64,000 bases of DNA from Hyphococcus sp. (GTDB lineage Bacteria; Pseudomonadota; Alphaproteobacteria; Caulobacterales; Parvularculaceae), in contig JANQON010000006.1 of NCBI GenBank assembly GCA_028289605.1, positions 372,001 through 436,000 of the forward strand, read 5' to 3'. The notes beneath the pieces are model-generated. The model was not told where the DNA came from and made no database searches. It saw nothing but the letters and a program-made list of their open reading frames with translations. The first letter of the stretch is position 1. The number at the start of each line of letters is the position of its first letter. The translations under genes were made by a program, and so were the position numbers. Of this stretch, positions 35,394-63,920 are shown in pieces.

Positions 35394-35426
35394 AATCGGG
35401 GCGCGCTAGGGGGGCGGGAGAAGCAG

Positions 35427-37823: not shown

Positions 37824-37881
37824 CCCGGGGCCCAGTGACGCGGGGGTTTGCGGGGAGCGACCGGCCCGGCAATATATCCTT

Positions 37882-37906: not shown

Positions 37907-37929
37907 AGGCGGCTCAAAGGAGCGGTAGG

Positions 37930-39674: not shown

Positions 39675-39715
39675 AAACAAACATGATTGATTGTTTTTTG
39701 GCGCATCGGCATACT
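39675..39715 (+). promoter_or_regulatory. Operator A (18-bp palindrome) overlapping a sigma70-type promoter
   Basis: AAACAAACATGATTGATT (39675-39692) matches the AAACAATCATGATTGTTT consensus at 16 of 18 positions. Its right half contains a -35 candidate TTGATT (39687-39692), followed 17 bp later by CATACT (39710-39715) as -10. The promoter would drive the PQQ-protein/MaoC transcript. The overlap favours a repressor, probably TetR-like. Confidence 0.75.
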
Positions 39716-39766
39716 GACCCGTTAGGCGACGGGACGGATGAAGCCCGGGCAATGCGAGGAAGTAAA

Positions 39767-41692
39767 ATGACAGGCGAAAACCGCGCATTGCGCACGCGCT
39801 CCCTTTCAATCCTCATTGGACTGTCCGCCCTCCTCGCCGCGTGCGGCGGCGACCAGACCGATCCGCCGAGCCATCTTGAAGAAACGCGCGTGAAGTCCAC
39901 TGACGAGTTCGTGTCGCGCGCAGGCAACGCGATTGATCCGGCGACCCATCCGGGCAATGCGCTGTTCGCCGAAAACTGCGCGGCCTGTCACAACGGACGC
40001 GTGCCCAAAGCGCCGGCGACGGTGTGGCTTGAAATGATGGCGCCGGACGCCATTCTCGCATCCATGAACGACGGCATTATGAGCGCGCAGTCGGCGCATC
40101 TTCAGCCGTCGGAAAGAATGCAGATCGCGGAATATCTGACGCGCACGTCGCTGGAAGACTACAAGCCTCCTGCGCCGCCGCAACAATGCGCCGGCGACGC
40201 TATGCAATTTGAGGGCGCAGCGCCGGCGAAGGTCGGTTGGGGCCACGACACAACGCGCTTCATCCCGGAGACGGTAAGCGGACTGTCAAAGGAACAGGTT
40301 GCAAATCTCAAATTAAAATGGGCGTTTGCATTCCCGTCTGCGGTGCGGGCGCGCTCGCAGCCTGCGATTGGCTGGAACACCATTTTTGTCGGCAGTCAGG
40401 ACGGAACCGTTTACGCCTTTGACCTCGAAACTGGTTGCGCAAAATGGACGTATCGCGCATCTGCGGAGGTGCGCACGGGGATCATTGTCGACGCGGAAGA
40501 AAAGCGCCTCTATTTCGGCGATTTCTTGGGGCGCGCTTACGCTCTCGACGCCATAAACGGCCGGGAACTGTGGCGGACGAAAGTCGACGACCATCCCAAC
40601 GCCACCATTACCGGCACGCCGACGTTGGGCGGCGGCAGGCTCTATGTGCCGATTTCGTCGCTGGAAGTCACCTCAGCCGCCGATCCGACCTATGCTTGCT
40701 GCACCTTCCGCGGGGCTGTCGCCGCCTTGAATCCCGAAACCGGGGCGATTGAGTGGAAAACCCACACCATTCCCGAACCGCCGACCAAATTCGGCGAAAC
40801 GTCCGTAGGCACAGCAATCCTGGGCCCTTCAGGCGCACCGGTCTGGTCAGCGCCGACCTATGATGCAAAGCGCAATCGCGTCTATGTCGGATCCGGCGAA
40901 AACTATTCTTCGCCTGCTGACGAAAACTCTGACGCCGTTTTCGCTCTTGATGCGGCCACCGGCGTAAAAGTCTGGCAAACACAGTTCACCGTCGGCGACG
41001 CCTGGAATGTCGGATGCATGATGGGCAATGAGAACTGCCCGGAAGAAAACGGCCCTGATCTGGATCTCTCGGCGGCGCCGCTCATCGTGCCGGTCGCCGA
41101 CAATCGCGAGATGCTGGTGATCGGACAGAAATCAGGCGTCGCCTACGGGCTCAATATCGATAATGGCGACATCGTCTGGGAACGCCGCCTCGGCCATGGC
41201 GGCACCCAAGGCGGCGTGCATTTCGGCATGACGACGATCGGCGACAAAGTGTTCGTCCCGATCGTCGATATGCAAAACACTTATGACGCGCGCGTGTACG
41301 ATACGTCACAATACGGGGCGGGCATCCACGCCGTCAGCGCGTCAACGGGCGATATCCTGTGGCGCCATATCGCCGACAATGTCTGCGACGGCCGACAGTT
41401 CTGCGACCCCGGCGTTTCCGCCGCCGCCACGTCGATCCCGGGCGTTGTCTTTGCCGGGCATCTCGACGGACGGTTTCGCGCCTATGACGCAGAGACCGGC
41501 GACGCCATCTGGACTTTCGACACGACGCAGCAGATTGAAACGGTATCCGGCGAGATCGCTTCCGGCGGCTCCATGAGCGGCCCCGGCGCCGCCATCGCCG
41601 ACGGACATGTCGTGATCAACTCCGGTTACGGACTTTACTATCATATGCCGGGCAACGTCCTGTTGGTTTTTGCCGTCGATGAACGTGCATGA
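39767..41692 (+). CDS. Lipoprotein fusing cytochrome c to a PQQ-type propeller dehydrogenase
   Basis: A 641-residue periplasmic lipoprotein. GAGGAAG precedes the ATG at 39767 and the signal ends in the lipobox 'LAAC' (Cys26). Residues about 64-130 form a c-type cytochrome with CAACH (Cys71, Cys74, His75). The remainder is a PQQ/WD-like 8-blade propeller ('QDGTVYAFDLETGCAKWTY', 'ALDAATGVKVWQ', 'YGLNIDNGDIVWERRLG', 'RAYDAETGDAIWTFD'). N-terminal haem plus propeller is the layout of polyvinyl-alcohol dehydrogenase (PVADH)-type enzymes. It likely oxidises an alcohol and passes electrons to the respiratory chain. Co-transcribed with a MaoC gene. Confidence 0.87.
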   Translation: MTGENRALRTRSLSILIGLSALLAACGGDQTDPPSHLEETRVKSTDEFVSRAGNAIDPATHPGNALFAENCAACHNGRVPKAPATVWLEMMAPDAILASMNDGIMSAQSAHLQPSERMQIAEYLTRTSLEDYKPPAPPQQCAGDAMQFEGAAPAKVGWGHDTTRFIPETVSGLSKEQVANLKLKWAFAFPSAVRARSQPAIGWNTIFVGSQDGTVYAFDLETGCAKWTYRASAEVRTGIIVDAEEKRLYFGDFLGRAYALDAINGRELWRTKVDDHPNATITGTPTLGGGRLYVPISSLEVTSAADPTYACCTFRGAVAALNPETGAIEWKTHTIPEPPTKFGETSVGTAILGPSGAPVWSAPTYDAKRNRVYVGSGENYSSPADENSDAVFALDAATGVKVWQTQFTVGDAWNVGCMMGNENCPEENGPDLDLSAAPLIVPVADNREMLVIGQKSGVAYGLNIDNGDIVWERRLGHGGTQGGVHFGMTTIGDKVFVPIVDMQNTYDARVYDTSQYGAGIHAVSASTGDILWRHIADNVCDGRQFCDPGVSAAATSIPGVVFAGHLDGRFRAYDAETGDAIWTFDTTQQIETVSGEIASGGSMSGPGAAIADGHVVINSGYGLYYHMPGNVLLVFAVDERA

Positions 41693-41711
41693 TAGGGCGG
41701 CGCGCGGCGAT

Positions 41712-42158
41712 ATGAGACAATACGAAGACCTCAAAATCGGGGAGAAAGCTGTTTCAGCGCCGGCGCCAGTTGACCGGGAAGATATGCTCAGTTTCGCCCG
41801 AAAGTACGATCCCCAGTGGTTTCACACCGACATCGACGCCGCGCAACACTCCGTGTTTGGCGAGCTGATCGCGAGCGGCGTTTACACGGCAGCGTTCTGG
41901 CGCAAGCTCGATCATACGATCAACGGCGACGTAGACTTTATATGCGGCGTTGCCTGGGAGGACGTGCGATGGCCGAAAGCGGTGCGCGCCGGCGATGTGC
42001 TTCGCGCGTCGTCCGAAGTCCTCGAAAAGCGTCCGTCCGAAAGCAACCCGGAACGGGGGGTCGTTGTGTTTCTTTATCAGCTGCACAATCAGGACGACGA
42101 GACGGTCTTTTCCTGTCGCAGCATCAATCTGGTGCGTCGGCGCTCTGCTGGGGATTGA
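41712..42158 (+). CDS. MaoC-type (R)-hydratase
   Basis: 148 residues with the hotdog-fold MaoC pattern: 'YEDLKIGEKAVSAPAPVDREDMLSFARKYDPQWFHTD' (with 'D...H' pair typical of the catalytic Asp/His), 'GELIASGVYTAAFWRKL'. It probably hydrates enoyl-CoA esters or acts as a thioesterase-like domain. It starts at 41712, 19 bp after the PQQ-gene stop, with only a weak ribosome site. Its 3' end overlaps the convergent Rieske ferredoxin gene by 35 bp. Confidence 0.82.
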   Translation: MRQYEDLKIGEKAVSAPAPVDREDMLSFARKYDPQWFHTDIDAAQHSVFGELIASGVYTAAFWRKLDHTINGDVDFICGVAWEDVRWPKAVRAGDVLRASSEVLEKRPSESNPERGVVVFLYQLHNQDDETVFSCRSINLVRRRSAGD

Positions 42159-42459
42159 CCAGGACGTCGCCGTCCTCAACGCGCAAGGCGAACGTGGCCA
42201 ACGGCTTGTCGGTCAGCTTACCGATCGGGGCGCCGTCTTTCAGGTTAAAGCGTTGCCCGTGAAGCGGACAAAATATGAAGCACCCGCGGATCTTTCCGCC
42301 TTCGAGCTCCTGGAGCTGGTGCGTACAAATATTGTCGACGGCGAAAAATCCGTCCTTGGTGTTGCAGACAAGAATGCTGCGGCCGTCGATGTCGAACGCC
42401 TTGCTTTCGTTGTCCCCGATCTCATCAGTCGAGCACACTTTCCGAAACGGATTGTCCAT
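42124..42459 (-). CDS. Rieske [2Fe-2S] ferredoxin
   Basis: 111 residues. Cys45-x-His47 ('CTHQ') and Cys64-x2-His67 ('CPLHG') bind a Rieske cluster. The size and the lack of a signal peptide identify a soluble ferredoxin that would deliver electrons to the Rieske oxygenases of this island, which come without their own ferredoxin. No reductase gene is visible. Downstream of the acyl-CoA dehydrogenase by 5 bp in one operon. Confidence 0.93.
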   Translation of the reverse strand: MDNPFRKVCSTDEIGDNESKAFDIDGRSILVCNTKDGFFAVDNICTHQLQELEGGKIRGCFIFCPLHGQRFNLKDGAPIGKLTDKPLATFALRVEDGDVLVNPQQSADAPD

Positions 42460-42464
42460 CGAAG

Positions 42465-43625
42465 CTACTTCCGCTGATCAAAGCGGCGGCCGACCATGGC
42501 CGACGCGATATTCACCTTCTGAATATCGATGGCGCCGCCGGCGATTCCCCAGCCCCAGGCGTCGCGCATGCGCCGTTCCATACCGAATTCCTTGGAATAG
42601 CCGTAAGCACCCATCATCTGCACCGCGGAGCCCGTCACTTCGCGCGCAATTTCGTTCGCGTAACACTTGGCGACGGAGGAATCCAAAATGCTTGGCAAAC
42701 CAATCTGCGAATTGCAGGCGACCCGATGGATCAAGAGCCGCGCGGCCTCAACCCGCATCTGCATTTCCGCCAGACGCAACTGCACCGCCTGAAAGTCGAC
42801 GATGGGTTTGCCGAACTGCCGGCGCTCCTGAACATAGGCGAGCACATCCTCAAGGGCTCCGGACGCCTGGCCCAGCGCCATGGTCGCGTTTCCGCAACGC
42901 TCAAGATCAAACGCTTCCATCAGCTTTTTGAAGCCGCCGGCGGGAACGACGACATTCTCCGCCGAAACCTCCGCATCGTCGAAAAAAATGTCGCTTGACG
43001 GCACGCCGCGAAAACCCATCAGGCTTTCCTGCGGCCCGAACGTTACGCCGGGCGCGTCCTTTTCGACGTAAACCGCCCCGATCCCGCGCGCGCCGGCATC
43101 GTCCGACATGCGGCAGTAAACGAGATACCCGTCGGCATGACCGCCGCCGGAGCACCAGCGTTTCATGCCATTCAGGATGACTTTGTCGCCCGCTGCGACA
43201 GCCTTCGTTTTCAGATCGGTCAGCGCCGACCCGGCGTCCGGCTCCGACATAGCGATGGCGACGACGGTCTCGCCCTTGCACACAGCGGGAACGACGCGCT
43301 TTTTCAGGTCTTCCGAACCAAAATGCTCAATCGCTTTTACCGGACCCACGCAGGATTCAAAAATCGGAAACGCGACGGCGGACGAAATCTTGGCGAATTC
43401 CTCAACAATCAGCAGCGCCTCAAGATTGCCGAGCCCGAGCCCGCCATATTCTGCGGGAATGTTGACGCCGAGAAAGCCCATATCGGCGTATTGTTTGATA
43501 AGCTCAGTAGACGGAGGTTCGGCGTTTTCCTCGCATGCTTTGGCGATATCCGGCAGTTCCGCGCGGGCGAATGCGCGCGCTGCGTCGCGCAATCGAACCT
43601 GATCGTCGGTTAGTCTGAAATCCAT
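42465..43625 (-). CDS. Acyl-CoA dehydrogenase
   Basis: 386 residues, FAD-dependent acyl-CoA dehydrogenase. 'GVNIPAEYGGLGLGNLEALLIVEEFAKIS' and 'VAIAMSEPDAGSALTDLKTKAVAAG' are the FAD/substrate loops, and 'MMGAYGYSKEFGMERRMRDAWGWGIAGG' the C-terminal dimer segment. The start at 43625 follows the operator B region and gives the normal N-terminus; upstream in-frame starts would run into operator B. Substrate likely a bulky acyl-CoA of the island pathway. Confidence 0.92.
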   Translation of the reverse strand: MDFRLTDDQVRLRDAARAFARAELPDIAKACEENAEPPSTELIKQYADMGFLGVNIPAEYGGLGLGNLEALLIVEEFAKISSAVAFPIFESCVGPVKAIEHFGSEDLKKRVVPAVCKGETVVAIAMSEPDAGSALTDLKTKAVAAGDKVILNGMKRWCSGGGHADGYLVYCRMSDDAGARGIGAVYVEKDAPGVTFGPQESLMGFRGVPSSDIFFDDAEVSAENVVVPAGGFKKLMEAFDLERCGNATMALGQASGALEDVLAYVQERRQFGKPIVDFQAVQLRLAEMQMRVEAARLLIHRVACNSQIGLPSILDSSVAKCYANEIAREVTGSAVQMMGAYGYSKEFGMERRMRDAWGWGIAGGAIDIQKVNIASAMVGRRFDQRK

Positions 43626-43690
43626 CGGTGTTTGCTCTTGGCCGCGACTTCCGCGACCATATCGGGACCGGCTGGCCATGCCAAGAGAAA

Positions 43691-43731
43691 AAACAGTCAT
43701 GATTGTTTTTCTTTTCTCTGTGCGGTATGGA
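43691..43731 (+). promoter_or_regulatory. Operator B (18-bp palindrome) with promoter for CoA transferase gene
   Basis: AAACAGTCATGATTGTTT (43691-43708) matches the consensus at 17 of 18 positions. TTGTTT in its right arm (43703-43708) is followed 17 bp later by TATGGA (43726-43731), the same geometry as at operator A. It lies between divergent genes: the acyl-CoA dehydrogenase (minus) and the CoA transferase (plus). Confidence 0.78.
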
Positions 43732-43762
43732 AAAGCTTAAGAAAATCAAAGACGGAGACCCT

Positions 43763-44962
43763 ATGTCCCCTCTCCTGAAAGGCGTGCGCGTACTCGATAT
43801 CGGGCGCTACGTGGCGGGCCCTTATTGTGCGACGCTGCTGGGCTATTTCGGCGCGGAGGTCATCCGCGTCGAACGGCGCGAAGGCGGCGAGGACCGCTAC
43901 ATCGCGCCGCTTTTCACCCATGACGACGGCGCGCCCGGCGAGGGCGGGTTATTCATGCAAACCGGCTGCGGGAAAAAGTCGGTGACCCTCGATCTGTCAA
44001 AACCGCAGGGCCGTGAGATCCTCCATCGGCTTGCTGCAGTATCAGACATCGTCGTCGCCAACCTGCCGCCGAAAGCATTGAAAAAACTGGGGCTCGACTG
44101 GGCGGGTTTCTCGGCGATGAATGACAAAGGCATCCTCGTTACACAGACGAGTTTCGGCTCGCGCGGTCCGGACGCAGACAAGGGCGGCTTCGACGGCGTC
44201 GCCCAGGCGATGTCCGGCGCTATGTATCTGACGGGGACGCCGGACCACCCGGCGAAAGCCGGCGCACCGTATGCTGATTTTTCAACCGCCGTTTTCTCAG
44301 CGCTCGGCGCAATGGCTGCGCTTATGGCGCGCGACAAGACCGGCAGGGGCCAACATGTGGAAACATCGCTTCTCGGCGTCGCCCTCGCTGCAATGAATTC
44401 CCATCTTGCAGAACAGGCCGTGACGCAAATCAATCGCGCCGGCACCGGCAATCGCGTGCAGACATCCGCTCCTTCCGACGTATTCAAAACCCTGGACGGG
44501 CATATCCTGGTGCACACGGTCGGCGACGGCCTGTTCAAGCGATGGGCGGCGCTTGTCGGCCGGCCCGAACTCGCTGACGACCCACGCTATCGGGGCGACC
44601 AGGCGCGCGGAGATGCTCGCGACGCGCTATGCGCCATTATGGCCGACTGGTGCGGTGGAAAGTCGACCGACGACGCCCTCGCCGCGCTGCAACAGGCCGG
44701 CGTCCCGTCAGGACCGGTCCTTACCCAGCAACAGGCGCTCGACAATCCCCAGGCGGACGCCATGGAATTTTTTAAGTCGGTCACTTTTCCCGGCCTGCCT
44801 CTCCCGGCTCCCGTCGCCGATTTGCCGATTGATTTCTCAGACCTCGACGCCGGCGTACAGGGCCCGCCGCCGCGACTCGGCGAGCATTCGCACGCCGTGC
44901 TGCGCCTTGTCGGATACAGCGACCGAGAAATCGCCGAATTGGAAGCAAATGAGATTATTTGA
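43763..44962 (+). CDS. Class III CoA transferase (CaiB/BaiF family)
   Basis: 399 residues. 'LLKGVRVLDIGRYVAGPYCATLLGYFGAEVIRVERREGGEDRY' and the catalytic-Asp region 'TQTSFGSRGPDADKGGFDGVAQAMSGAMYLTG' match formyl-CoA-transferase-type enzymes, which move CoA between acids. Together with the acyl-CoA ligase at 54.7 kb it offers a second way to activate substrates or recycle CoA esters. GGAG precedes the ATG at 43763. Confidence 0.9.
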   Translation: MSPLLKGVRVLDIGRYVAGPYCATLLGYFGAEVIRVERREGGEDRYIAPLFTHDDGAPGEGGLFMQTGCGKKSVTLDLSKPQGREILHRLAAVSDIVVANLPPKALKKLGLDWAGFSAMNDKGILVTQTSFGSRGPDADKGGFDGVAQAMSGAMYLTGTPDHPAKAGAPYADFSTAVFSALGAMAALMARDKTGRGQHVETSLLGVALAAMNSHLAEQAVTQINRAGTGNRVQTSAPSDVFKTLDGHILVHTVGDGLFKRWAALVGRPELADDPRYRGDQARGDARDALCAIMADWCGGKSTDDALAALQQAGVPSGPVLTQQQALDNPQADAMEFFKSVTFPGLPLPAPVADLPIDFSDLDAGVQGPPPRLGEHSHAVLRLVGYSDREIAELEANEII

Positions 44963-45071
44963 TCGAATAGCCGATTTCGCCGCATCGACCGCCTATCTGT
45001 AAAATATCATATTTTTCAGACAATTAGGTCCTGTTTGAGCATTTCACCGCAAAGCAATTCAATCAATTTAA

Positions 45072-45089
45072 AAACAATCATGTCTGTTT
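45072..45089 (+). promoter_or_regulatory. Operator C (18-bp palindrome)
   Basis: AAACAATCATGTCTGTTT matches the consensus at 16 of 18 positions. It lies 72-89 bp upstream of the Rieske oxygenase start. I do not see a good -10 at the 17-bp distance used at A and B, so the promoter position here is uncertain. The 198-bp gap 44963-45160 holds nothing else that I recognise. Confidence 0.75.
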
Positions 45090-45160
45090 TTCTTTTATTG
45101 GGCGTTCACCCGTGATAGTCTTTTTGCATTCGTTTCCACGACCTTTTTGAGGACGGTTCC

Positions 45161-46396
45161 ATGGACGCGTCGACCATCGAAAAAATCAAAGCCGGCATGG
45201 CGTATGAGTCAGCGCGGAACGGCCCGCCGGATGGGTTCCCCGCCCTGCCGCCGATTCCGAGCGCGCGCTACATCGATCAGGAATTCAATGATCTTGAAAT
45301 GGCGCGGCTTTGGAAGAGAAGCTGGGTTTACGCCTGTCATATGGACGAGTTGCCCGAGCAGGGCAGCTATATTCTGTGGAAGCGTCTTGGTTCGCCGATC
45401 CTTATCATCCGCGGCAAGGACGACAAGGTTCGCGCATTCTACAATACATGCCGCCATCGCGGCGGCCCGCTTGTGAAAGACGAGTCCGGGCGGCGCAATT
45501 TATTTGTGTGCGGATATCACGGCTGGAGCTACGATCACGAAGGCAATCTGGTGGCCGTGCGGGACCCGCGGGACTTCCCGAATTTCGACAAGTCTTGCCT
45601 CGGCCTTATTCCTGTCGCCTGTGAAAACTTGGGAAATTGGGTTTTTGTCAATTGCGACGAAAACGCGGAGCCCCTGCTCGACTATCTCGGCCCTGTCGCG
45701 GATGAAATGTCCGAATTTCAGCCGGAGAATATTCGTCTCGCCCATAAGGCAGAGTATGAAATCAAGTGCAATGTGAAGGTGCTCCTCGACGCCTTTCTCG
45801 AGACGTACCACCTGAAATCCATTCATCAGCAGACGGTCGATCGCTTTCTTGATCATATGGGCACGACCATCGAACTTTGGCCGAACGGGCATTCGCGCAT
45901 GGTAACGCCGAACCGTCGCCCGGAATGGAAAGACCCGGGCGTCGCCGGGCTGCCGGAGTTGGATACCGTAGGCGAAATCGCGCGGGACAATAACGTCTCC
46001 TACAATGTCTTTCCCAATATCGTCTGCCCGCCGTCGCCCACGGGCATGCCGTTCATCGTCTTCTGGCCGAAGACGCTCAATACGATGGCGCTCGAATGCA
46101 TCTGGTTTTCGCCGGACTGGGGCGGCGGCCCGCTGCCGGAAATCTGGCGGACGCGCATCGACAATTTCGAGCGGATCCTGGAAGAGGACACCCAGTTTGC
46201 GCCGCAAATCCAGGAGTCGGTTGAGTCAGACGGCTTCAAGGGGATCCCGCTTTCGTACCAGGAACGGCGCATCTATCATTGGCATGAAGAACTGGACCGC
46301 CGCATCGGCGCCGAGAACGCCAAACAGAATGTGCGCGTAGAACCTGTTTTGGCGCCGTACATCGAAAATCCACACGCCAGCCGCGCGGCGGAATAG
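45161..46396 (+). CDS. Rieske non-heme iron oxygenase, alpha subunit
   Basis: 411 residues. Rieske ligands Cys97-x-His99 ('CRHRGG') and Cys117-x2-His120 ('CGYHGWSYDHEG'); catalytic domain with 'DAFLETYHLKSIHQQT' giving Asp210, His217 and His222 at the mononuclear iron. It probably hydroxylates or demethylates a cyclic substrate. No beta subunit follows, so a homotrimeric alpha-only enzyme is likely. GAGGA before the ATG; heads an operon of oxygenase, KAS-like, thiolase, SDR and CMD. Confidence 0.94.
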   Translation: MDASTIEKIKAGMAYESARNGPPDGFPALPPIPSARYIDQEFNDLEMARLWKRSWVYACHMDELPEQGSYILWKRLGSPILIIRGKDDKVRAFYNTCRHRGGPLVKDESGRRNLFVCGYHGWSYDHEGNLVAVRDPRDFPNFDKSCLGLIPVACENLGNWVFVNCDENAEPLLDYLGPVADEMSEFQPENIRLAHKAEYEIKCNVKVLLDAFLETYHLKSIHQQTVDRFLDHMGTTIELWPNGHSRMVTPNRRPEWKDPGVAGLPELDTVGEIARDNNVSYNVFPNIVCPPSPTGMPFIVFWPKTLNTMALECIWFSPDWGGGPLPEIWRTRIDNFERILEEDTQFAPQIQESVESDGFKGIPLSYQERRIYHWHEELDRRIGAENAKQNVRVEPVLAPYIENPHASRAAE

Positions 46397-46407
46397 TCAG
46401 CGACGCC

Positions 46408-47856
46408 ATGACCGCATTCGGGATATTGAGTTACGGCGCCTATGTACCGCGCCGGCGCATGTCCCGCACGCACCTGTTCGAGGCCGTCGGCTGGGCGCAA
46501 CCGTCATTAAAGGGCTTGGCGAAAGGCGCGCGCGCCTTCGGCGCCTGGGACGAAGACCCGATCACGATGGCCGTCGAAGCGGCGCGCGCCGCACTCGCGG
46601 GCGGCGTTCCAAAACCTGACGCCCTGTGTTTTGCATCGACCACGGCGCCCTTTCTTGATCGTCAGAACGCCGGCGTCATCGCGGCGGCGCTTGATCTCGC
46701 CGCTGAAACGCATGTTTACGACGGGGGCGGTTCGCAGCGCGCGGCGACGTCCGCTTTGATGCGCGCCGCGACGGCGCAAAACGGCGCAACGCTTGTTGCG
46801 ACGGCGGAGCAACGTCCCGCCAAATCGGCGAGTGTGACGGAGATGCTCTCAGGCGATGCAGGCGCAGCGTTGTTGATCGGCGCCGGCGAGCCGCTTGCAG
46901 ACATTATCGGCGCGAATGCGGTTTACGCGGACATCGTTGATCATTACCGGACCGCCGCCTCGGGCGAAGACTACGTTCTCGAGGAACGATGGTTCCGCGA
47001 CGAAGGACTGACAAAGCTGGCGCCTCAGGCCGCAGGCCCGTTGTTGGAAAAAGCAAAGCTTGCCGCAGGCGACATCGACTGTCTGATCGTTCCTGTTTCG
47101 AACCCTGCTCTCGCCGGGGCGGTCGCGCGTGCGCTCGACATTGGAAAAGACAAACTCGCCGGCAGCTTATTCAACGAGTGCGGACACGCCGGCGCAGCGC
47201 ATCCCCTACTCATGCTCGCAGCCGCCCTCGAAAGCGCAACGCCGGGTCAGGTCATCCTGATGACCGCTTTCGGTCAGGGATGCGACGCTGTCCTGCTGCG
47301 CGCGACGGATGCGGTTTCAAAGCGGAGAACCGCTCTATCCGGCCAACTGGAAAACGGCCGGATCGAGACCAACTACACAAAGTTTCTGGCCGCGCGCGGC
47401 GCCATCGACATCGACTGGGGCATGCGCGCCGAACGAGACAGCCGCACGGCGCAAACCGTCGCCTACGACAAGTCTCGCGACATTTACGGATTCGTCGGTG
47501 GCGTCTGCAGCGCGTGCGGCACACCGCAGTTCCCGAAATCGCGACGCTGCGTCAATCCGGACTGCGGCGCGCTGGACACGCAGACCGACTATCGATTTGC
47601 TGATTTAACCGCGACGGTTAAGTCCTATACTGAGGATTGGATGGCGTTTACGCGGGAGCCGCCGCTTGTCTACGGCAATGTCTCGTTTGAAGGCGGCGGC
47701 AACAAATTCATGGAAATGTGTGATTTCGAACCTGGCGGCGTAGCGGTCGGCACGTCCGTCGCCATGAATTTCCGCATTAAGGACATCGATGCGGCGCGCG
47801 GCTTTCACCGCTATTTTTGGAAAGCCGGCCCTGTTCCGGGAGGCGCCGGTGGCTGA
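46408..47856 (+). CDS. Ketoacyl-synthase-III/HMG-CoA-synthase-like protein fused to a DUF35 OB-fold domain
   Basis: 482 residues. The first ~345 residues are thiolase-fold and KAS III/HMGS-like ('PDALCFASTTAPFLDRQNAGVIA', 'FNECGHAGAAHPLLMLAAAL'). The loop where KAS III has its nucleophilic Cys reads 'YDGGGSQRAATSAL': the cysteine seems replaced. Then a zinc ribbon, Cys367-x2-Cys370 ('CSACG') and 'CVNPDCG', and an OB-fold DUF35 tail ('TVKSYTEDWMAFTREPPLVYGNVSFEGGG'). DUF35 domains partner thiolases in BbsAB and Ltp2-ChsH2. Its end overlaps the thiolase gene by 8 bp. Confidence 0.85.
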   Translation: MTAFGILSYGAYVPRRRMSRTHLFEAVGWAQPSLKGLAKGARAFGAWDEDPITMAVEAARAALAGGVPKPDALCFASTTAPFLDRQNAGVIAAALDLAAETHVYDGGGSQRAATSALMRAATAQNGATLVATAEQRPAKSASVTEMLSGDAGAALLIGAGEPLADIIGANAVYADIVDHYRTAASGEDYVLEERWFRDEGLTKLAPQAAGPLLEKAKLAAGDIDCLIVPVSNPALAGAVARALDIGKDKLAGSLFNECGHAGAAHPLLMLAAALESATPGQVILMTAFGQGCDAVLLRATDAVSKRRTALSGQLENGRIETNYTKFLAARGAIDIDWGMRAERDSRTAQTVAYDKSRDIYGFVGGVCSACGTPQFPKSRRCVNPDCGALDTQTDYRFADLTATVKSYTEDWMAFTREPPLVYGNVSFEGGGNKFMEMCDFEPGGVAVGTSVAMNFRIKDIDAARGFHRYFWKAGPVPGGAGG

Positions 47857-49048
47857 AGGCATACGCGACAAAGTCGCCATCATCGGCATGGGCTGCACCC
47901 GGTTCGGAGAACGCTGGGATGCGCGTCCTGAGGACCTCGTTACGGAAGCGTTCGAGGAAGCCATCGCCGACGCCGGCATCGAAAAAGATCAGATTGAAGC
48001 CGGTTGGTTCGGCGTCTTTTATGACGAACAGAATGTCGGCAAGTCGGCCTATCCGTTATCGCAATATCTTCGCCTGCCAAACATCCCGGTTACGCGCGTA
48101 GAAAATCTGTGCGCCACAGGAACGGAAGCCTTGCGCGGCGCGACCTACGCTGTCGCCGCCGGCGCCTGCGACATCGCGCTGGCGATGGGCTGCGAAAAGC
48201 TGAAGGACACCGGGTTCTCAGGGCTGCCCGAGCGCACGAAGGGCACGTTCGAAGATCTCTATCAACCGGGATTCACCCCGCCCGGCGCGTTTGCGCAGCT
48301 CGGCGCCGCCTACGCCGCCAAACACCGCCTCAACATGGATGACCTGAAGCGCGCGATGGCGCATGTCTCCTGGAAAAGCCACGAGAACGGCGCGCGCAAC
48401 GACAAAGCGCATTTGCGACGCAAGCTGACAATGGAGCAGATTCTCGACGCGCCGATGGTCGCCTACCCGCTTGGCGTATTCGATTGTTGCGGCGTTTCTG
48501 ACGGCGCGGCGTGCGCGATCGTCGCCCGGCCGGAAATCGCCCGGGAACTCGTTGGCGACAGTTTCGTGACCGTCAAGGCGATGCAGCTGGCGCCGTCGAA
48601 CGGCGTTGAAATGGGCCATCAGTCCTGGGACGGCGCCCATACGCTGACAACGCGCAAAGCCGCGTCACGCGCTTACGAGGAAGCCGGCGTCAGCGATCCG
48701 CTTGCCGATATCAGCGTCACTGAAGTCCATGACTGTTTTTCGATCACTGAACTTGTCCTGATGGAAGATCTCGGTCTATCGCAGGACGGCGCGGCGCCGT
48801 CGGACATTTTGGACGGCAGATATGACGCCGACGGCGCCATTCCTTGTCAGATCGACGGCGGGCTTAAGTGCTTTGGTCATCCGATCGGCGCATCGGGCTT
48901 GCGCATGACGTATGAAATCTATTTGCAGCTCCTCGGACGCGCCGGCGAGCGACAGCTTAAATCGCCGAACTTCGGACTTGCGCACAATCTGGGCGGCATT
49001 CCGAACCGGAATGTGGCGGCCGTTTCGATTTTCGGCATGAGCGATTAA
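47849..49048 (+). CDS. SCP2-type thiolase/acyl-CoA acetyltransferase family protein
   Basis: 399 residues. Nucleophilic Cys88 ('ENLCATGTEAL'), 'HDCFSITELVL' and 'CFGHPIGASGLRM' (His344) preserve the thiolase Cys/His set, while the C-terminal second Cys motif is replaced by 'AHNLGGI', as in SCP2-type enzymes. Starts with GTG inside the stop region of the KAS/DUF35 gene (GTGGCTGA overlap), so the two are made in equal amounts and very likely form one complex. Likely role: retro-Claisen or retro-aldol cleavage of a bulky CoA ester side chain. Start set by GGGAGG. Confidence 0.9.
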   Translation: MAEGIRDKVAIIGMGCTRFGERWDARPEDLVTEAFEEAIADAGIEKDQIEAGWFGVFYDEQNVGKSAYPLSQYLRLPNIPVTRVENLCATGTEALRGATYAVAAGACDIALAMGCEKLKDTGFSGLPERTKGTFEDLYQPGFTPPGAFAQLGAAYAAKHRLNMDDLKRAMAHVSWKSHENGARNDKAHLRRKLTMEQILDAPMVAYPLGVFDCCGVSDGAACAIVARPEIARELVGDSFVTVKAMQLAPSNGVEMGHQSWDGAHTLTTRKAASRAYEEAGVSDPLADISVTEVHDCFSITELVLMEDLGLSQDGAAPSDILDGRYDADGAIPCQIDGGLKCFGHPIGASGLRMTYEIYLQLLGRAGERQLKSPNFGLAHNLGGIPNRNVAAVSIFGMSD

Positions 49049-49064
49049 GGGGAGTGCGCGGAAC

Positions 49065-49985
49065 ATGGGAAACAAAATGAAATCCAGCAATTTGACTGCG
49101 AGCGCGAGCGATGCATCCGGCAACGTGACGCCCATCCGCGACTATTCAGGAATGACGCTCGAAGAACTGGCGAAGGCGCCGACGGTCTACAAGGACGACC
49201 TTCTGGACGGTCAAACGGCAGTGATTTCGGGCGGCGGCAGCGGCATGGGCCGGGCCATGGCCGTGCTTTTCGCGCGGCTCGGCGCCAATGTGGTAATTTG
49301 CGGCCGGCGCGAAGAGAAACTCGCCGAAGTACGCGACGGCATCAAGGCTTTTGCGGGGCGCGACATATCCTACAAGCCGCTCACTATTCGCGATGCAGAC
49401 AGCGTCGATATCTTCATGGAAGAGACCTTCAAAAAATTCGGTCCGATTGACGTGTTGATTAACAGCGCCGGCGGTCAGTTTTCTCAGGATGCGATCGATT
49501 TTTCCAGAAAAGGCTGGCTTGCGGTCATCGACACCAATCTCAACGGCACCTGGTGGATGATGCAGGAGGCTGCGCAACGCTGGCGCGACAAAGGCGCGCC
49601 CGGCAACATTATCAACATTACGGCGACCGTCGAGCGCGGCATGCCTCAGTCGGCGCATTCATGCGCAGCGCGGGCCGGCGTGATCTATTTGTCGAAGACG
49701 GTGTCCACCGAATGGGCGCCCCTCAATATTCGCGTGAATTGCATTGCGCCCGGCGCCATCGAAACCGAAGGGGTCACGCAATATTCGAAAGATGCGTTGC
49801 ACGATTTTCCGCTCGCCAATCCGATGAAGAAATTCGGCGATGTTTGGGATATTGCGGAAACCGCCGTCTACCTCGCGGCGCCGTCATCTAAGTTCGTGAC
49901 CGGCGAAGTCATCACTGTCGACGGCGGCATGTCTCAGTACGGATGGGTTTGGCCGATCGGCAAGCCGGATTATTTCAAGGACTAA
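49065..49985 (+). CDS. SDR oxidoreductase, dienoyl-CoA-reductase-like, Lys replaced by Arg
   Basis: 306 residues. NAD(P)-binding 'ISGGGSGMGRAMA', 'INSAGG', and 'TATVERGMPQSAHSCAARAGVIYLSK...EWAPLNIRVNCIAPG'. The segment is of 2,4-dienoyl-CoA reductase/citronellol dehydrogenase type and lacks the YxxxK pair of classical SDRs; the lysine usual in 'AAKAGV' is arginine here. An N-terminal extension of ~45 residues precedes the Rossmann fold. Alternative start at 49077. Follows the thiolase by 16 bp. Confidence 0.85.
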   Translation: MGNKMKSSNLTASASDASGNVTPIRDYSGMTLEELAKAPTVYKDDLLDGQTAVISGGGSGMGRAMAVLFARLGANVVICGRREEKLAEVRDGIKAFAGRDISYKPLTIRDADSVDIFMEETFKKFGPIDVLINSAGGQFSQDAIDFSRKGWLAVIDTNLNGTWWMMQEAAQRWRDKGAPGNIINITATVERGMPQSAHSCAARAGVIYLSKTVSTEWAPLNIRVNCIAPGAIETEGVTQYSKDALHDFPLANPMKKFGDVWDIAETAVYLAAPSSKFVTGEVITVDGGMSQYGWVWPIGKPDYFKD

Positions 49986-49999
49986 AGACGGAGGCGACA

Positions 50000-50566
50000 A
50001 TGCCAAACACCCCTCTTTCGCGCGTTCCCCGGGACAAGCTTTCTGAAGACCTCAAACCGGTCTGGGATACGTTAAACGGTCTTACCGGCGAGCCGGCCTT
50101 TGTCGAAGCATTTGCAAACGCGCCGGAGCTTTTGCACTTCGTGATGGGCGAGTTTTACGGCAAGATCTTTTTCGAAGGGCGCGTGGACAACAAGTACAAA
50201 CAACTTGCACGCCTTTATCTTTCGATGACTCATGGCTGCATGACCTGCAACAAGCAGAACGTGCCCGGAAGCCTTGAGGCCGGAATCACGCAAGTGCAGG
50301 TCGACGCGATAACGGACTTTGAATCAGGGCCGTTCGACGAGGCGGAAAAAGCGGTTCTGCGATACACAGCGCAAATGGCGCTGACCAATGCCGACGGCTA
50401 TATGGACAAAAAGCTGTACGACGACTTGCGCGCGCATTTCGACGATGCGCAGATCTGCGAGCTCGGCGTCGTCATGGGCGTTATCGGCGGGATGGCAAAG
50501 CTTTCCTTCGTGCTTAATCTCGTGGAAAAGGAACCTTACTGCGAGTTTGCAAAACCCGCCGCTTAG
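50000..50566 (+). CDS. Carboxymuconolactone decarboxylase (CMD) family protein
   Basis: 188 residues, AhpD-like fold. 'LYLSMTHGCMTCNKQNVPGSLEAGI' holds the CxxC redox pair, followed by 'ALRYTAQMALTNADGYMD'-type helices (VLRYTAQMALTNADG). CMD members decarboxylate muconolactones or act as alkylhydroperoxidase reductases; the CxxC favours a peroxidase-like role that could protect oxygenases from peroxide. Start at 50000 is backed by GGAGG. Last gene of the operon opened by operator C. Confidence 0.85.
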   Translation: MPNTPLSRVPRDKLSEDLKPVWDTLNGLTGEPAFVEAFANAPELLHFVMGEFYGKIFFEGRVDNKYKQLARLYLSMTHGCMTCNKQNVPGSLEAGITQVQVDAITDFESGPFDEAEKAVLRYTAQMALTNADGYMDKKLYDDLRAHFDDAQICELGVVMGVIGGMAKLSFVLNLVEKEPYCEFAKPAA

Positions 50567-50595
50567 ATGGGTTGCAGGTCGGGCGACTCTCTTTC

Positions 50596-50681
50596 CCGCT
50601 CATCCCGACGAAGGTCGGGATCTCGTTCAACAGAATTCTGCGCAAGCTTTTTGAGATTCCGGCTTTCGCCGGAATGAGCGG
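50596..50681. repeat. Family A inverted repeat unit, copy 7
   Basis: Arms 50596-50622 and 50655-50681 (CTCATCCCGACGAAGGTC; GGAATGAGCGG) with a different spacer. It fills the convergent gap between the CMD gene and the SDR gene, a natural place for a bidirectional stop. Confidence 0.8.
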
Positions 50682-50711
50682 ATGTGTTTTTCAAGGATGT
50701 CGCGTCCCAGC

Positions 50712-51476
50712 CTAAAACTTAACAATCGCGCCGCCGTCTACATTCAATCCGACGCCGGAAACAAATTGCGCCTCGTCTGTGGCGAGAAACACCGCCGCCG
50801 CGGCGACATCTTCCGGTTGGCCCAACCGCCCGACCGGCGCCTTGTGTTCCCAATACTGACGAAACTCCTTGTCTTCGAAAAACGGCGCTGACAGCGCTGT
50901 TACGATGGCTCCCGGCTGCAGATAGTTTGCCGTTATGCCGTACTGACCGAGGTCGACCGCCATGGATTTCGTCATGCCCGCAACAGCGTGTTTTGACGTC
51001 CCGTATACGAATAAATCGGGCCCGCCCATATCGGACATGATGGAACCAAGATTGATGATCCGACCCGCCCTGCTTTGCTTTAGAGCAGGTATCGCCGCTC
51101 GGGAAATCTTGAACATCGCCGTAACATTGACGCCCATGACCTGATCCCAAAGCTCATCGCTGGTCATTTCCAGGGACGACCCCATGGCGACGCCGGCGTT
51201 ATTCACCAGAATGTCGATCCCGCCCAGCGCCGTCGCCGCCTCAGCCACAATGCGGTCCGCGGCATTTGTTTCCGTTACGTCCTGTTCGAGGCAGGCTGCG
51301 GCTGCGTGATCGGCGTAGACCGCGTGCAACGATTTTTCCGGCAGGTCCACCGCCAGGACCGATGCGCCCTCTTTAAGATAGGCTTTCGCAATGGCTTCGC
51401 CGATTCCGCTCGCCGCGCCGGTGACCACCGCTTTTTTGCCGCTCAATCGTCCGTTCGCATCATTGCCCGACGCCAT
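50712..51476 (-). CDS. SDR-family oxidoreductase (classical)
   Basis: 254 residues: 'VVTGAASGIGEAIA', 'LVNNAGVAMGSSLE', catalytic Ser ('NLGSIMSDM') and 'YGTSKHAVAGM' (Tyr and Lys). The classical residues are all present. Start at 51476 is backed by GGAG seven bases upstream; the longer frame to 51509 is not. Downstream of the second TonB receptor, behind a strong hairpin at 51497-51522. Substrate unknown. Confidence 0.9.
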   Translation of the reverse strand: MASGNDANGRLSGKKAVVTGAASGIGEAIAKAYLKEGASVLAVDLPEKSLHAVYADHAAAACLEQDVTETNAADRIVAEAATALGGIDILVNNAGVAMGSSLEMTSDELWDQVMGVNVTAMFKISRAAIPALKQSRAGRIINLGSIMSDMGGPDLFVYGTSKHAVAGMTKSMAVDLGQYGITANYLQPGAIVTALSAPFFEDKEFRQYWEHKAPVGRLGQPEDVAAAAVFLATDEAQFVSGVGLNVDGGAIVKF

Positions 51477-51496
51477 CAGCAATCTCCATAAAATAT

Positions 51497-51522
51497 GGGG
51501 CCGGCGCAATAACGCCGGCCCC
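51497..51522 (-). terminator. Hairpin between TonB receptor and SDR genes
   Basis: GGGGCCGGCG, loop CAATAA, CGCCGGCCCC: a 10-bp perfect G+C stem. On the minus strand it is followed by the T-rich ATATTTTATGG, so it can act as a partial intrinsic terminator or as an mRNA-end stabiliser for the receptor message, lowering expression of the SDR gene behind it. Confidence 0.65.
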
Positions 51523-51558
51523 TGTCGTTCTCTCCCCGACGGACGGGGCCGATGGAAC

Positions 51559-54015
51559 CTAGAAGTTTACGCCCAGTTCGGCGCCAAAGACGCGCGGTTC
51601 GCCATACTGGCTGAAAATCCACAAGTCGGCCACCGCCTGGGAAGAGACGCGGTAGCGTTCATTGGTGAGGTTGCGGCCGAACAGTCGGAAACTCCAGATA
51701 TCGTCCTCGCCGGCAAGCTCAATTGTCGCGCCCACAAGCGTTCTGGCGTTCAGCGTCGTATCAAAATCCGGATCGACGTCGGAGTACGAGAACACGTTCT
51801 CGTCCTCGTGCGCCGCAGTAACGCCGAGACGCAGGGTCAAGTCGTCGGCGACCGGTGTTTCGTAGCGCCCGTAGATTGTCCAGATTGTCTCTGGCGTCCG
51901 TGTCAGCGGCCGACCGGAGAAGTCAACGTCGATAACGCCGTCAAAGTCCGTATCCGCCTCAAACGACTCGAACTCGGCGTCCTGCCAGGAGAAGTTGCCG
52001 CCAATGAGCAGCCCTTCAACCGGCGTCACCCACTGGGTTTCCAGCTCGATCCCGAATACGCGCGCTTCCGCCGCGTTAAAGAAGCGGGTTTCCTGGAAAT
52101 CAACGCCAAGGCTGTTGGTCAGCGTCGCCGCGATCTGACGTTGGGCGTCTTTGTATTTTACGTAGAAGAATGTCGGGTTGAACCGAATGGTTCCGTCCGC
52201 AAGGTCCGTCCGCAGACCCACTTCATAGGACGTCGCAATCTCAGGCCGCGTCGGCGCTATGAGTTCGGCTGTCAATTCGTTGCCCGTCGTACCCGACTGG
52301 TCGTTAAAGGCGCCGGATCGGAAGCTGCGCGACGCGTTGAAGTACCCGTAGATATCGTCGGTGAATTCATAGGAGAGAACGCCGCGCCAGCTCGGCTCTT
52401 CGAAATCGCCGTTTTCGGTGTCCGCAAGCACCCCGTCGGAGAACCTTACAAAGTCCGCGGCGCCCAGAAGGCCGAGCGTGTCGAAGGTGATTGCCGGATT
52501 GAACGTCACGCCGTCTTCCAGAAGCTGGAACGTCCGCTGGTTGCGGCCGATCCATTCTTTCTGTTCCCAAGTATAGCGAATACCGCCAGCGAGGGTCAGG
52601 CGATCGGTGATGTCATAGGTCGCATCAGCGAACAGCGCGAACGCATTGGCGTCCTGGGCGTTACACAAAACCTGCGGACCGTTGTTCAGGGCGCCGAAGG
52701 GCGCAAGACCGAAGAGATCCACAAAGCCTAAGCGTTGCGTCACGCAGAACGTGGTGTCGTTGGATTGATAAAACCCGCCAGCGACCACATCGACCTGCTC
52801 GTTGAGATTAAAATTCAGGCGGACTTCCTGTTGAAAGGTTTCACGGTGGTCGGCCCGGTTGGCGTCGAACTGTGAGATTGGCCCGACTTCGCCGACATAG
52901 TTATTGGCGAGCGCAGAGGACTGTTCGCGATATCCCGTGATCGACTTCACGGTTACGGGTCCGAGGTCCCAATTGATGTTCAGATAGTAGCCGTCGACGT
53001 CGACCTGATGGCCGTCGTCAAGGCCGATATCAAACGCGCCGCGCGCGCTGGGATCGGTAATCCCTGCATTGTTGAGCACTTCGCCGCCGACGTCCTGGGT
53101 GAAGCCCAAGAGATTGAATATGAACCGGGGATCGCCGACCGGCGTTTCATTAATGGCGGGAACGGCGTCGGAATCTTCGCGAATGCGCTCATACTGGAAC
53201 AGCGCATTAAAGCTGTCGCTCGGCTCCCACAGGAGTTTTGTTCGGAAACTGAGAACGTCTTCTCCGCCGAGGCGGCGGAAGTCGCCCTGCCCTGTGGCGC
53301 CGTCGACCGGCGTCGGCACAAAACCGAAGACCGGCCCAAACTCGGCGCCGTTGCGATAGTAGCCGTCGTGTTTCTGGTACATACCGGCGAAACGGAAGGC
53401 GAAGTGATCCCATAGCGGCACATTGACTGCGAACCGCCCTTCCACGCGATTGTAGGATCCATATTGAATGCGCGCCTGCAAGGACGCCGCATCCAGATCC
53501 GGTCGCTTCGTGCGCACGTTAACGACGCCCGCCGTCGAGTTCTTCCCAAACAGCGTGCCCTGCGGCCCGCGCAGCACTTCGACCTGCTCGATGTCGAAAA
53601 TATCGAGCAGCTGAGTTTGCACATGAGGAACAACAAAGTCGTCGAGGGTGACCGCGACCTGTGACTCTGAATAGACGATGATGTCTGTCTGCGCCGCGCC
53701 GCGGATGGCGAAGGACGCCGCGTTGAAGCCGGTCACTTTTGACGCCGAGAAGTTCGGCACGAAAGCGGCGATGTCGCCAAGGTCATTGGGCACAAGAGAG
53801 TCCACAACGTCTTCGTTCAGCGCGGTCACGGCGACCGGCGTTTCCTGCAGGTCGGTTTCCCGCCGGGTCGCAGTGACGGTAATCACGTCGTTCTGCGCCA
53901 TGGCGCCGGCCGGAATCGCGACGCCGGCGAATCCCGCGCCTGCGGCCGCCAGTTTCAACGCCAGCGGCGCAGCGCTGATTTTCAACACTGATTTGAGTTT
54001 TTTGCTTGCAGACAT
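51559..54015 (-). CDS. TonB-dependent outer-membrane receptor of the catabolic island
   Basis: An 818-residue receptor. A signal peptide ends near residue 42 ('IPAGAMAQ'), then 'DVITVTATRRETDLQETPVAVTALNED' (TonB box and plug), 'EVLRGPQGTLFGKNSTAGVVNVRT', and a long aromatic-rich barrel ending 'GAELGVNF'. GGGAGGGG precedes the ATG at 54015. Operator D lies just upstream, so it belongs to the island regulon and probably imports its substrate. The TonB-box region is close to that of receptors near 21-23 kb. Confidence 0.93.
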   Translation of the reverse strand: MSASKKLKSVLKISAAPLALKLAAAGAGFAGVAIPAGAMAQNDVITVTATRRETDLQETPVAVTALNEDVVDSLVPNDLGDIAAFVPNFSASKVTGFNAASFAIRGAAQTDIIVYSESQVAVTLDDFVVPHVQTQLLDIFDIEQVEVLRGPQGTLFGKNSTAGVVNVRTKRPDLDAASLQARIQYGSYNRVEGRFAVNVPLWDHFAFRFAGMYQKHDGYYRNGAEFGPVFGFVPTPVDGATGQGDFRRLGGEDVLSFRTKLLWEPSDSFNALFQYERIREDSDAVPAINETPVGDPRFIFNLLGFTQDVGGEVLNNAGITDPSARGAFDIGLDDGHQVDVDGYYLNINWDLGPVTVKSITGYREQSSALANNYVGEVGPISQFDANRADHRETFQQEVRLNFNLNEQVDVVAGGFYQSNDTTFCVTQRLGFVDLFGLAPFGALNNGPQVLCNAQDANAFALFADATYDITDRLTLAGGIRYTWEQKEWIGRNQRTFQLLEDGVTFNPAITFDTLGLLGAADFVRFSDGVLADTENGDFEEPSWRGVLSYEFTDDIYGYFNASRSFRSGAFNDQSGTTGNELTAELIAPTRPEIATSYEVGLRTDLADGTIRFNPTFFYVKYKDAQRQIAATLTNSLGVDFQETRFFNAAEARVFGIELETQWVTPVEGLLIGGNFSWQDAEFESFEADTDFDGVIDVDFSGRPLTRTPETIWTIYGRYETPVADDLTLRLGVTAAHEDENVFSYSDVDPDFDTTLNARTLVGATIELAGEDDIWSFRLFGRNLTNERYRVSSQAVADLWIFSQYGEPRVFGAELGVNF

Positions 54016-54128
54016 CACTGCCCCTCCCAAAACGACCGTTCAGATTCCTACCTGCGATCTGGCTCCGGCGACCACGGCGGCCGCCAGCGAAAACTTCAAT
54101 CCGATCGTAGCGCGTCGAATCAAATTAC

Positions 54129-54146
54129 GAACAATCATGCTTGTTT
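54129..54146 (-). promoter_or_regulatory. Operator D (18-bp palindrome) upstream of the TonB receptor
   Basis: GAACAATCATGCTTGTTT matches the consensus at 16 of 18 positions. It lies 114-131 bp before the receptor ATG in the divergent gap. On the minus strand TTGTTC could serve as -35 with TACGAT 19 bp beyond it, a weaker fit than at A and B. Confidence 0.72.
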
Positions 54147-54249
54147 TTTTCTTGGCTGGCAACAGACGATAAAACCCGTCGTGACTGGTTTTCCGAACGA
54201 TTTGGCGAATGTGCAACACTTCTTTTTTCATATTGCGCCGCACAAAAAC

Positions 54250-54303
54250 AATCCAACATGTTTGTTTTTTTGTTGACCTTGCGCCGCGTCGGGTGTGGTC
54301 TAT
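54250..54303 (+). promoter_or_regulatory. Operator E (degenerate palindrome) and promoter of the ligase operon
   Basis: AATCCAACATGTTTGTTT (54250-54267) keeps the CATG centre and the right arm and matches 14 of 18 positions. Just behind it TTGACC (54273-54278) with GGTCTA (54297-54302, 18-bp spacer) forms a promoter candidate toward the ABM/ligase operon. The 369-bp gap 54016-54384 holds sites D and E and nothing else I recognise. Confidence 0.6.
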
Positions 54304-54384: not shown

Positions 54385-54678
54385 ATGGCGCACACTTTCA
54401 TCGCGAGATTCAAAATTTTTCCGGAAAAGGAGGCGCAATTCCTCGCCGCCTGCGAGCGCATGGAAAAGGCGGTCGCCGCCAACGAACCGGATGCGCTCGG
54501 CTACAAATTCTACCGTCTGCGCGAGCCGAACATGTTTGCGGCATTTGAGGCGTTCACGGATGAGGCCGCCGACGAAGCCCACCAGAATTCAGACCACTTC
54601 AAGGAGATCGCCCCCACCCTCATTGAATGCATTGACGGCGGCTGGGAACGCGAATTTCTCGATCCGTTGAAGAAATAG
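54385..54678 (+). CDS. ABM-domain (antibiotic biosynthesis monooxygenase-like) protein 1
   Basis: 97 residues of the dimeric alpha/beta ABM fold: 'AHTFIARFKIFPEKEAQFLAACERMEKAV', 'LGYKFYRLREPNMFAAFEAFTDEAA', 'HFKEIAPTLIECID'. Such proteins act as cofactor-free oxygenases on quinols or as heme/flavin partners. GGGAGA precedes its ATG. First gene of the ligase operon; a second ABM paralogue is at 56366. Confidence 0.82.
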   Translation: MAHTFIARFKIFPEKEAQFLAACERMEKAVAANEPDALGYKFYRLREPNMFAAFEAFTDEAADEAHQNSDHFKEIAPTLIECIDGGWEREFLDPLKK

Positions 54679-54688
54679 GGCGAGCGCC

Positions 54689-56353: not shown

Positions 56354-56365
56354 AGGAGACGATCT

Positions 56366-56677: not shown

Positions 56678-56694
56678 ACAACAGGAGCGCGGTC

Positions 56695-59327: not shown

Positions 59328-59344
59328 GGGCGTCGCCCCTTCTT

Positions 59345-60553: not shown

Positions 60554-60566
60554 TATCACTCCTCGC

Positions 60567-61580: not shown

Positions 61581-61592
61581 GGCGGCGCTCCC

Positions 61593-62558: not shown

Positions 62559-62561
62559 GGG

Positions 62562-63914: not shown

Positions 63915-63920
63915 GAGACC

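Follow-up and report, generated by a model that had tools for sequence, protein, structure and literature searches.

A TetR-family regulator and its probable palindromic operator across a catabolic island of Hyphococcus sp.

The TetR-family repressors KstR and KstR2 reportedly control cholesterol catabolism in mycobacteria, and QacR-type TetR operators are bound by two dimers. Here we analyze an 18-bp palindrome that recurs in a catabolic island of the alphaproteobacterium Hyphococcus sp.; the island begins in a 64-kb stretch of DNA (64,000 nucleotides, C14:372001-436000, referred to as the window) and runs past its right edge. Judged from the letters and the gene context, the palindrome is very probably the operator of an autoregulated TetR repressor, which would control the island as one regulon. 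Such a regulon would resemble that of KstR, in which one autoregulated TetR reportedly acts by way of short palindromes on a large degradation cluster with many units, but the KstR sites reportedly differ in sequence from the island palindrome.

EdcR from the sphingomonad Caenibius tardaugens is a TetR repressor of the estradiol degradation cluster. Its authors suggest that several promoters of the cluster carry a palindrome, which overlaps the -10 and is less conserved at the promoter of the regulator itself (PMC8700777). The likeness to the island lies in a TetR repressor of a ring-degradation cluster, in that case of a sphingomonad, with palindromes at several promoters. However, the operator proposed for EdcR, TnnCnnTACnAnTnGTAnnGnnA, is unlike AAACAATCATGATTGTTT of the island when the operators, rather than the proteins, are compared by eye, and regulation of the EdcR type was dismissed on this ground (PMC8700777). 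PheR from Sphingobium sp. SHPJ-2, a regulator of phenanthrene degradation, resembles the proposed system in that it represses both the uptake and the breakdown of a hydrophobic substrate; it differs in belonging to the IclR family and in its core motif GCAACG, and PheR-type regulation was dismissed because of the other protein family (PMC13273656).

A literature search for the substrate, with gene and taxon words, showed no matching cluster among the records listed. The main text of a paper on Sphingobium Chol11 mentions neither TonB nor thiolase, and the hits for "tetr" among the passages listed are to words like tetraene (PMC8540908). The string ACAATCATGATTGT had no match in the open-licence literature, and CAATCATGATTG matched there two papers, by title on patchouli viruses and on yeast.

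Palindromes and a TetR gene

An earlier note on the window had listed five sites, at 39675, 43691, 45072, 54129 and 54250, with 16, 17, 16, 16 and 14 of 18 letters in agreement with the consensus; all five were found again with these values. With ≤3 mismatches allowed, the window contains four matches, compared to a mean of 0.01 and a maximum of 1 in 100 dinucleotide shuffles. The same threshold gave seven matches in the whole genome (4,292,329 bases in 19 contigs, ~4.29 Mb) and none for the reversed control. Six of the seven, including the four in the window, cluster within 28 kb (C14:411675-439429), so that the palindrome is rare elsewhere in the genome, a point on which the earlier proposal depended. 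Two of the six are strong copies past the right window edge with one mismatch each (C14:436746 and C14:439412; 64746 and 67412 in window numbering). The seventh match (C11:191201, 3 mismatches) lies inside a reading frame with the biotinyl-type motif VEAMKTMN, which we take to be accB-like; this location inside a coding frame led us to dismiss it as a member of the regulon. Chance is excluded for the strict motif. A relaxed consensus with 14 fixed letters and ≤2 mismatches, which like the 22-bp pattern described below was drawn after some of the sites had been seen, matched 19 places in the genome versus 5 for its control. Nine of these are in the island, among them C14:437654 directly in front of a TetR gene, and the ten elsewhere all have 2 mismatches.

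This TetR-family gene is located beyond the window edge at G000:C14:437689-438426 (65689-66426 in window numbering, plus strand) and encodes a product of 245 aa. One strong palindrome occurs ~0.9 kb before it and another ~1.0 kb behind it; a third, diverged copy is found in its own promoter gap. Since the gene is flanked by two strong palindromes, the regulator that was missing from the window has most likely been found, and it was found where the earlier note had advised looking, near a further copy. The same arrangement supports its proposal of a repressor, probably of the TetR type. None of the 31 TetR_N matches in the whole genome lies in the window, so that the claim of no regulator gene there holds for TetR, the family that was scanned across the whole window.

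The assignment of the protein to the TetR family is based on several lines of evidence. The N-terminal helix-turn-helix domain TetR_N (PF00440) was detected with 48.2 bits versus a cut-off of 24, and with 51 bits in a six-frame search. The predicted structure of the monomer is confident and contains helices only (mean pLDDT 88.0, pTM 0.80), in agreement with the all-helical TetR fold of a helix-turn-helix and a C-terminal domain for ligand and dimer contacts, and the 50 PDB matches listed, out of 158 with E≤0.001, are TetR-type regulators with TMt values of 0.43-0.73; some of them, such as EthR2, DarR and GusR, were classed as TetR-type by name. The best PDB match by sequence is TtgR (E 5.9e-10), which covers residues 28-101, the DNA-binding part. 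A comparison with NCBIfam equivalogs, such as BetI, AcrR, RutR, FadR and PsrA, gave 17 families at E≤0.001 and none above its curated cut-off; the best score, 46.6 versus a cut-off of 150 bits, was obtained with the ScbR type.

The two strong copies and the diverged one before the TetR gene (65650-65671) bring the number of sites from five to eight (A-H, Table 1), and these come in two forms. The 18-bp dyad is found at B, C, D, F and G. The other three, A (on the minus strand), E and H, follow a 22-bp form, NNACAATCANNCATGNNTGTTT, with 0, 1 and 1 mismatches respectively. This form can be read as two overlapping CA-N8-TG dyads with an offset of 4 bp. Both dyads are intact at A and H; in E, CC replaces CA in one of them (read by eye). 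The element at 54250 had been described as a degraded 18-mer. This description was dismissed, since the element is part of the 22-bp site at 54246-54267, which agrees in 20 of 22 letters with the reverse complement of 39675-39696 (compared by eye), and this form is common to 39675 and the TetR promoter. Judged from its two overlapping dyads, a 22-bp site could seat two dimers, which recalls the QacR-type operators; the differences are the 4-bp offset of the island dyads and the additional presence of the single-dyad 18-bp form.

The island extends from 39,466 to 69,620 in window numbering (~30 kb) and is 6.3% intergenic by the gene table. It has ten gaps of at least 60 bp, the types of which were judged from gene direction. 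Sites occur in all three divergent gaps, with two sites in that between the TonB receptor and ABM genes, in four of the five same-strand gaps and in neither of the two convergent ones; the lone same-strand gap without a site is the 82 bp between the TonB receptor and SDR2. By position, sites A-H put a palindromic operator over the promoter of the regulator and over those of its neighbours, as is typical of the TetR family. This placement supports the earlier suggestion that the island forms a single regulon. The units named at the time remain in it, but RO3, SDR5 and, at 58-64 kb, the SDR4-RO2-E1-E2-glyoxalase unit were missing from the list, and their inclusion is supported as well.

Conservation in near and distant relatives

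We compared the locus with a set of 60 genomes, i.e., its own and 59 near relatives. A TetR match at ~80% identity or better is present only in the genome itself, in G002 and in G032. These three genomes contain 6, 5 and 5 palindromes with ≤2 mismatches respectively; they are the only ones with more than one such site and the only ones with any site at ≤1 mismatch. A single palindrome with 2 mismatches was found in each of G003, G009, G022, G035 and G056. The promoters of the relatives were compared at sites B-H. In 14 comparisons at B-G, 14-18 of the 18 site letters are kept while the flanks are 30-60% identical; in four comparisons at H the values are 15-17 of 18 and 43-65%. Site C is kept in 18/18 and 17/18 letters in G002 and G032. 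The sites are therefore kept in relatives that carry the island, which is the comparison that the earlier note had called for; of the two outcomes that it named as refuting the regulon, neither was observed.

More distant loci were retrieved with two peptide patterns, GAMMHHF and EIGRQAQK, which were derived from three orthologues. They found 102 TetR relatives, of which the best 80 loci were used: 28 grouped as Alphaproteobacteria (one of them, L089, titled only Proteobacteria) and 52 grouped as Gammaproteobacteria (L134 being titled Flavobacteriaceae). The latter include loci titled SAR92, Halieaceae and Porticoccaceae. With ≤3 mismatches allowed, 24 of the 28 alphaproteobacterial loci contain a total of 43 sites, compared to a mean of 0.22 and a maximum of 6 for 37 palindromes permuted from the same letters. 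In the gammaproteobacterial set, 34 sites are spread over 23 of the 52 loci, compared to a mean of 0.31 and a maximum of 4 for 35 such controls. All 57 alphaproteobacterial operators and 37 of the 46 gammaproteobacterial ones precede an island-gene homologue at a distance of ≤400 bp; none is inside a matched gene. The TetR start was defined as the stretch from ~360 bp before the estimated start of the gene to 60 bp past it. An operator of the 18- or 22-bp form (≤2 mismatches of the relaxed patterns) is present there in 53 of 79 loci, versus 0 of 79 for each of the two reversed patterns. The 22-bp form alone (≤2 mismatches) occurs at the TetR start in 17 of 79 loci, in nine of them without mismatch; the sole guard on this post hoc pattern is its reversed control with 0 of 79. 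By comparison, 17 loci around other TetR genes (L015-L031) had no site with ≤3 mismatches, within only 3.2-3.6 kb each.

A related island with a TetR gene and palindromes is also found on the 762-kb plasmid pCME4A9I of Croceicoccus marinus (L147), meaning that sphingomonads can carry such a regulon on a plasmid. TetR relatives occur in ten plasmid records, and two of these regions were examined.

The helix SRGAMMHHF is invariant in 37 aligned proteins, with the limitation that GAMMHHF itself is one of the two retrieval patterns. It is conceivable, and we suggest it only tentatively, that TetR proteins with this helix found an undescribed subfamily that keeps one operator across Alpha- and Gammaproteobacteria and governs a TonB/Rieske/coenzyme A (CoA) pathway common in marine bacteria. 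The two operator geometries, the 18-bp single dyad and the 22-bp double dyad offset by 4 bp, might then set different strengths or timing for the regulator, the uptake and activation genes and the enzyme units.

Proposed repression of the island and its alternatives

The earlier note had recognized a -35/17 bp/-10 arrangement at sites A and B. It is present in the letters, but the promoter is weak: a promoter scan gave no match at A, and its one match at B (TTGGCA-17-TATGGT) is on the minus strand, 6 bp beside the site. The best-supported overlap occurs at site F instead. Here the scan gives a minus-strand TTGACG-16 bp-CATGAT with the -10 inside the palindrome, and the -35 (CGTCAAG; TTGACG on the minus strand) is kept in 5/5 aligned genomes at the same distance ± one base. 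Behind the sites at C and G a GATAG/GCTAG-like element is kept, the distance being constant or nearly so (by eye); this spacing would put the site at or beside the -35. The positions of the operators, most clearly that at F, favour repression by blocking the polymerase.

From the observed sites, their rarity and conservation, their gene context and their co-occurrence with the TetR gene we infer binding, repression and release by an inducer. In the absence of inducer a TetR dimer, or perhaps two at the 22-bp sites, would sit on each operator over or beside the promoter. It would thus shut off TonB uptake, the pyrroloquinoline quinone (PQQ) dehydrogenase, the CoA ligase and CoA-transferase, three Rieske oxygenases, the thiolase, the E1/E2 dehydrogenase and its own gene. 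An inducer, either an intermediate of the pathway or an imported compound, would bind the C-terminal domain of TetR and release the protein from the DNA; the whole island would then be induced as one regulon, with the regulator damping itself. A hydrophobic ring compound would fit a gene set with TonB-dependent uptake, three Rieske oxygenases and steps on CoA thioesters.

A number of observations weigh against this interpretation. Retrieval by peptide pattern enriches the distant loci for the shared recognition helix, and they are not a random sample; since the loci were chosen partly by this helix, the data indicate that TetR proteins with this helix travel with the operator, and the frequency of the operator near others is not shown by them. 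No site with ≤3 mismatches is present in 4 of the 28 alphaproteobacterial and 29 of the 52 gammaproteobacterial loci. The TetR start region is without a site by the above criterion in 26 of 79 cases, including that of G002 (L068), yet the alignment shows related sequence there in G002. The relaxed pattern matches ten places outside the island versus five in the control, and a few weak sites beyond the island are therefore possible. At site B the minus-strand promoter-like match adjoins the palindrome and does not overlap it.

The remaining points on this side come from a class-wide draw of 240 genomes, own included. Five other genomes have a TetR match with E≤1e-40, and none of them has a site with ≤2 mismatches; 32 other genomes without such a TetR hold 1-3 matches (≤2 mismatches) each, and matches with 1 mismatch occur in such genomes twice in G291 and once in G210. 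The 32 genomes show that single palindromes occur as background. G149 (L151, 1842-15152), with a TetR of 36% identity, several island homologues and one weak site with 3 mismatches at 14394, is an exception. No genome of the draw besides the own has more than three matches, and none besides it has both regulator and site. We read the five TetR proteins mostly as paralogues: three show GAML for GAMM where the helix pattern matched, and four have at most one further island homologue. G098, G225 and G284 (helix GAMLYHF, on a 5.3-kb contig) fit paralogues with another operator; the G233 locus has a TetR without any other island gene.

The TetR genes of G098 (L149, ~9830) and G225 (L150, ~9546) encode proteins that are 51% and 49% identical to that of the island and have the helix GAMLHHF rather than GAMMHHF. 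At each locus one other island homologue is present and the operator was not found. Together with the island TetR they are a possible natural specificity pair.

An improbable scenario is that the same TetR binds these sites as an activator, or activates some promoters and represses others. Some TetR proteins are activators, and the distance of 6 bp between palindrome and promoter-like match at B would leave room for one; an activator could also sit at C and G, where the sites abut or overlap the likely -35 region (by eye). At F, however, the palindrome holds the -10 of a promoter-like match with a fully kept -35, and a protein bound there would block the polymerase. Furthermore, autorepressors usually have an operator in their own promoter.

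It is even less probable that the palindrome belongs to a different DNA-binding protein encoded elsewhere and that the TetR gene just travels with the island. The genome does have 31 TetR_N matches, and both the 26 TetR start regions without a site and the 32 class genomes with matches but no close TetR would fit such a scenario. Against it, a Pfam search of the island proteins detected no DNA-binding family other than TetR among those searched. Loci of two classes, 53 of 79 in all, have the site at the TetR start, only the orthologue-bearing genomes of the near-relative set contain more than one site with ≤2 mismatches, and the short loci around 17 other TetR genes have none. A last reading takes the copies for a mobile or structural repeat with no role in regulation. 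Its probability is negligible and it was dismissed: several near-identical copies do lie within one region, but their letters differ, they occupy gaps before genes, relatives keep the sites in spite of diverging flanks, and none is inside a matched gene of a relative.

With the palindrome as operator of an autoregulated TetR repressor, the regulon is of an ordinary kind with a newly assigned regulator; less ordinary are the two operator forms and an operator unusually well conserved over a wide range of bacteria. An orphan motif thereby becomes a testable regulator-operator pair, and an uncharacterised degradation regulon is outlined. TetR and operator together are a marker for related regulons in Novosphingobium, Croceicoccus and marine gammaproteobacteria, and the TetR could act as a reporter for finding the substrate by way of a compound that releases it.

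Gene units and neighbouring features

The units in Table 1 were grouped by gene direction and spacing.

Table 1. Putative operators and gene units of the island. Positions are in window numbering, which is continued past the window edge at 64000.
Feature	Position	Strand	Type or products	Context
Site A	39675..39696 (18-bp register 39675-39692)	-	22-bp form	301-bp gap before PQQ/cytochrome c dehydrogenase and MaoC genes
Site B	43691..43708		18-bp operator, 17/18	between divergent acyl-CoA dehydrogenase and CoA-transferase genes
Site C	45072..45089		18-bp operator	before RO1 unit
Site D	54129..54146		18-bp operator	TonB-receptor side of 369-bp divergent gap
Site E	54246..54267	+	22-bp form	ligase side of 369-bp divergent gap
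Site F	64746-64763 (C14:436746)		18-bp operator	past window edge
Site G	67412-67429 (C14:439412)		18-bp operator	past window edge
Site H	65650-65671 (C14:437650)		diverged 22-bp form	promoter gap of TetR gene
Unit A	39767..42158	+	PQQ beta-propeller dehydrogenase with cytochrome c domain (39767-41692), MaoC-like protein (41712-42158)	
Unit B minus	42124..43625	-	acyl-CoA dehydrogenase (42465-43625), Rieske-type ferredoxin (42124-42459)	
Unit B plus	43763..44962	+	family III CoA-transferase	
Unit C	45161..50566	+	Rieske oxygenase RO1, HMG-CoA-synthase-like/ChsH2 zinc-ribbon fusion, thiolase, SDR1, carboxymuconolactone decarboxylase-like protein (CMD)	
Unit D	50712..54015	-	TonB-dependent receptor (51559-54015), SDR2 (50712-51476)	
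Unit E	54385..58091	+	ABM protein, AMP-binding ligase, second ABM protein, SnoaL_4 protein, SDR3	
Unit F, in-window part	58237..64000	-	RO2, E1 alpha, E1 beta, E2, two glyoxalase-like frames, end of SDR4	
SDR4	63921-64685	-		unit F; crosses window edge
SDR5	64804-65571	-		
GST	66473-67396			unit with TetR
RO3	67498-68862			own unit after site G

A lipid cluster adjoins the island at 32723-39465, with genes for a HAD-acyltransferase, glycerol-3-phosphate dehydrogenase, GPAT and a WS/DGAT wax-ester/triglyceride synthase; the window scan gave no palindrome with ≤3 mismatches in it. On the minus strand at 58237-59327 there are two overlapping glyoxalase-like frames of 234 and 179 aa, the start of the first being uncertain. 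A comparison of RO3, RO1, the synthase and the thiolase with solved structures returned general relatives only. The HMG-CoA-synthase-like/ChsH2-type zinc-ribbon fusion overlaps the thiolase gene (46408-49048), and among the nearest solved relatives in this region are PhlA-type enzymes as well as chains from a thiolase/HMG-CoA synthase complex (6esq). This may be a hint that C-C bonds are cleaved or formed on CoA esters.

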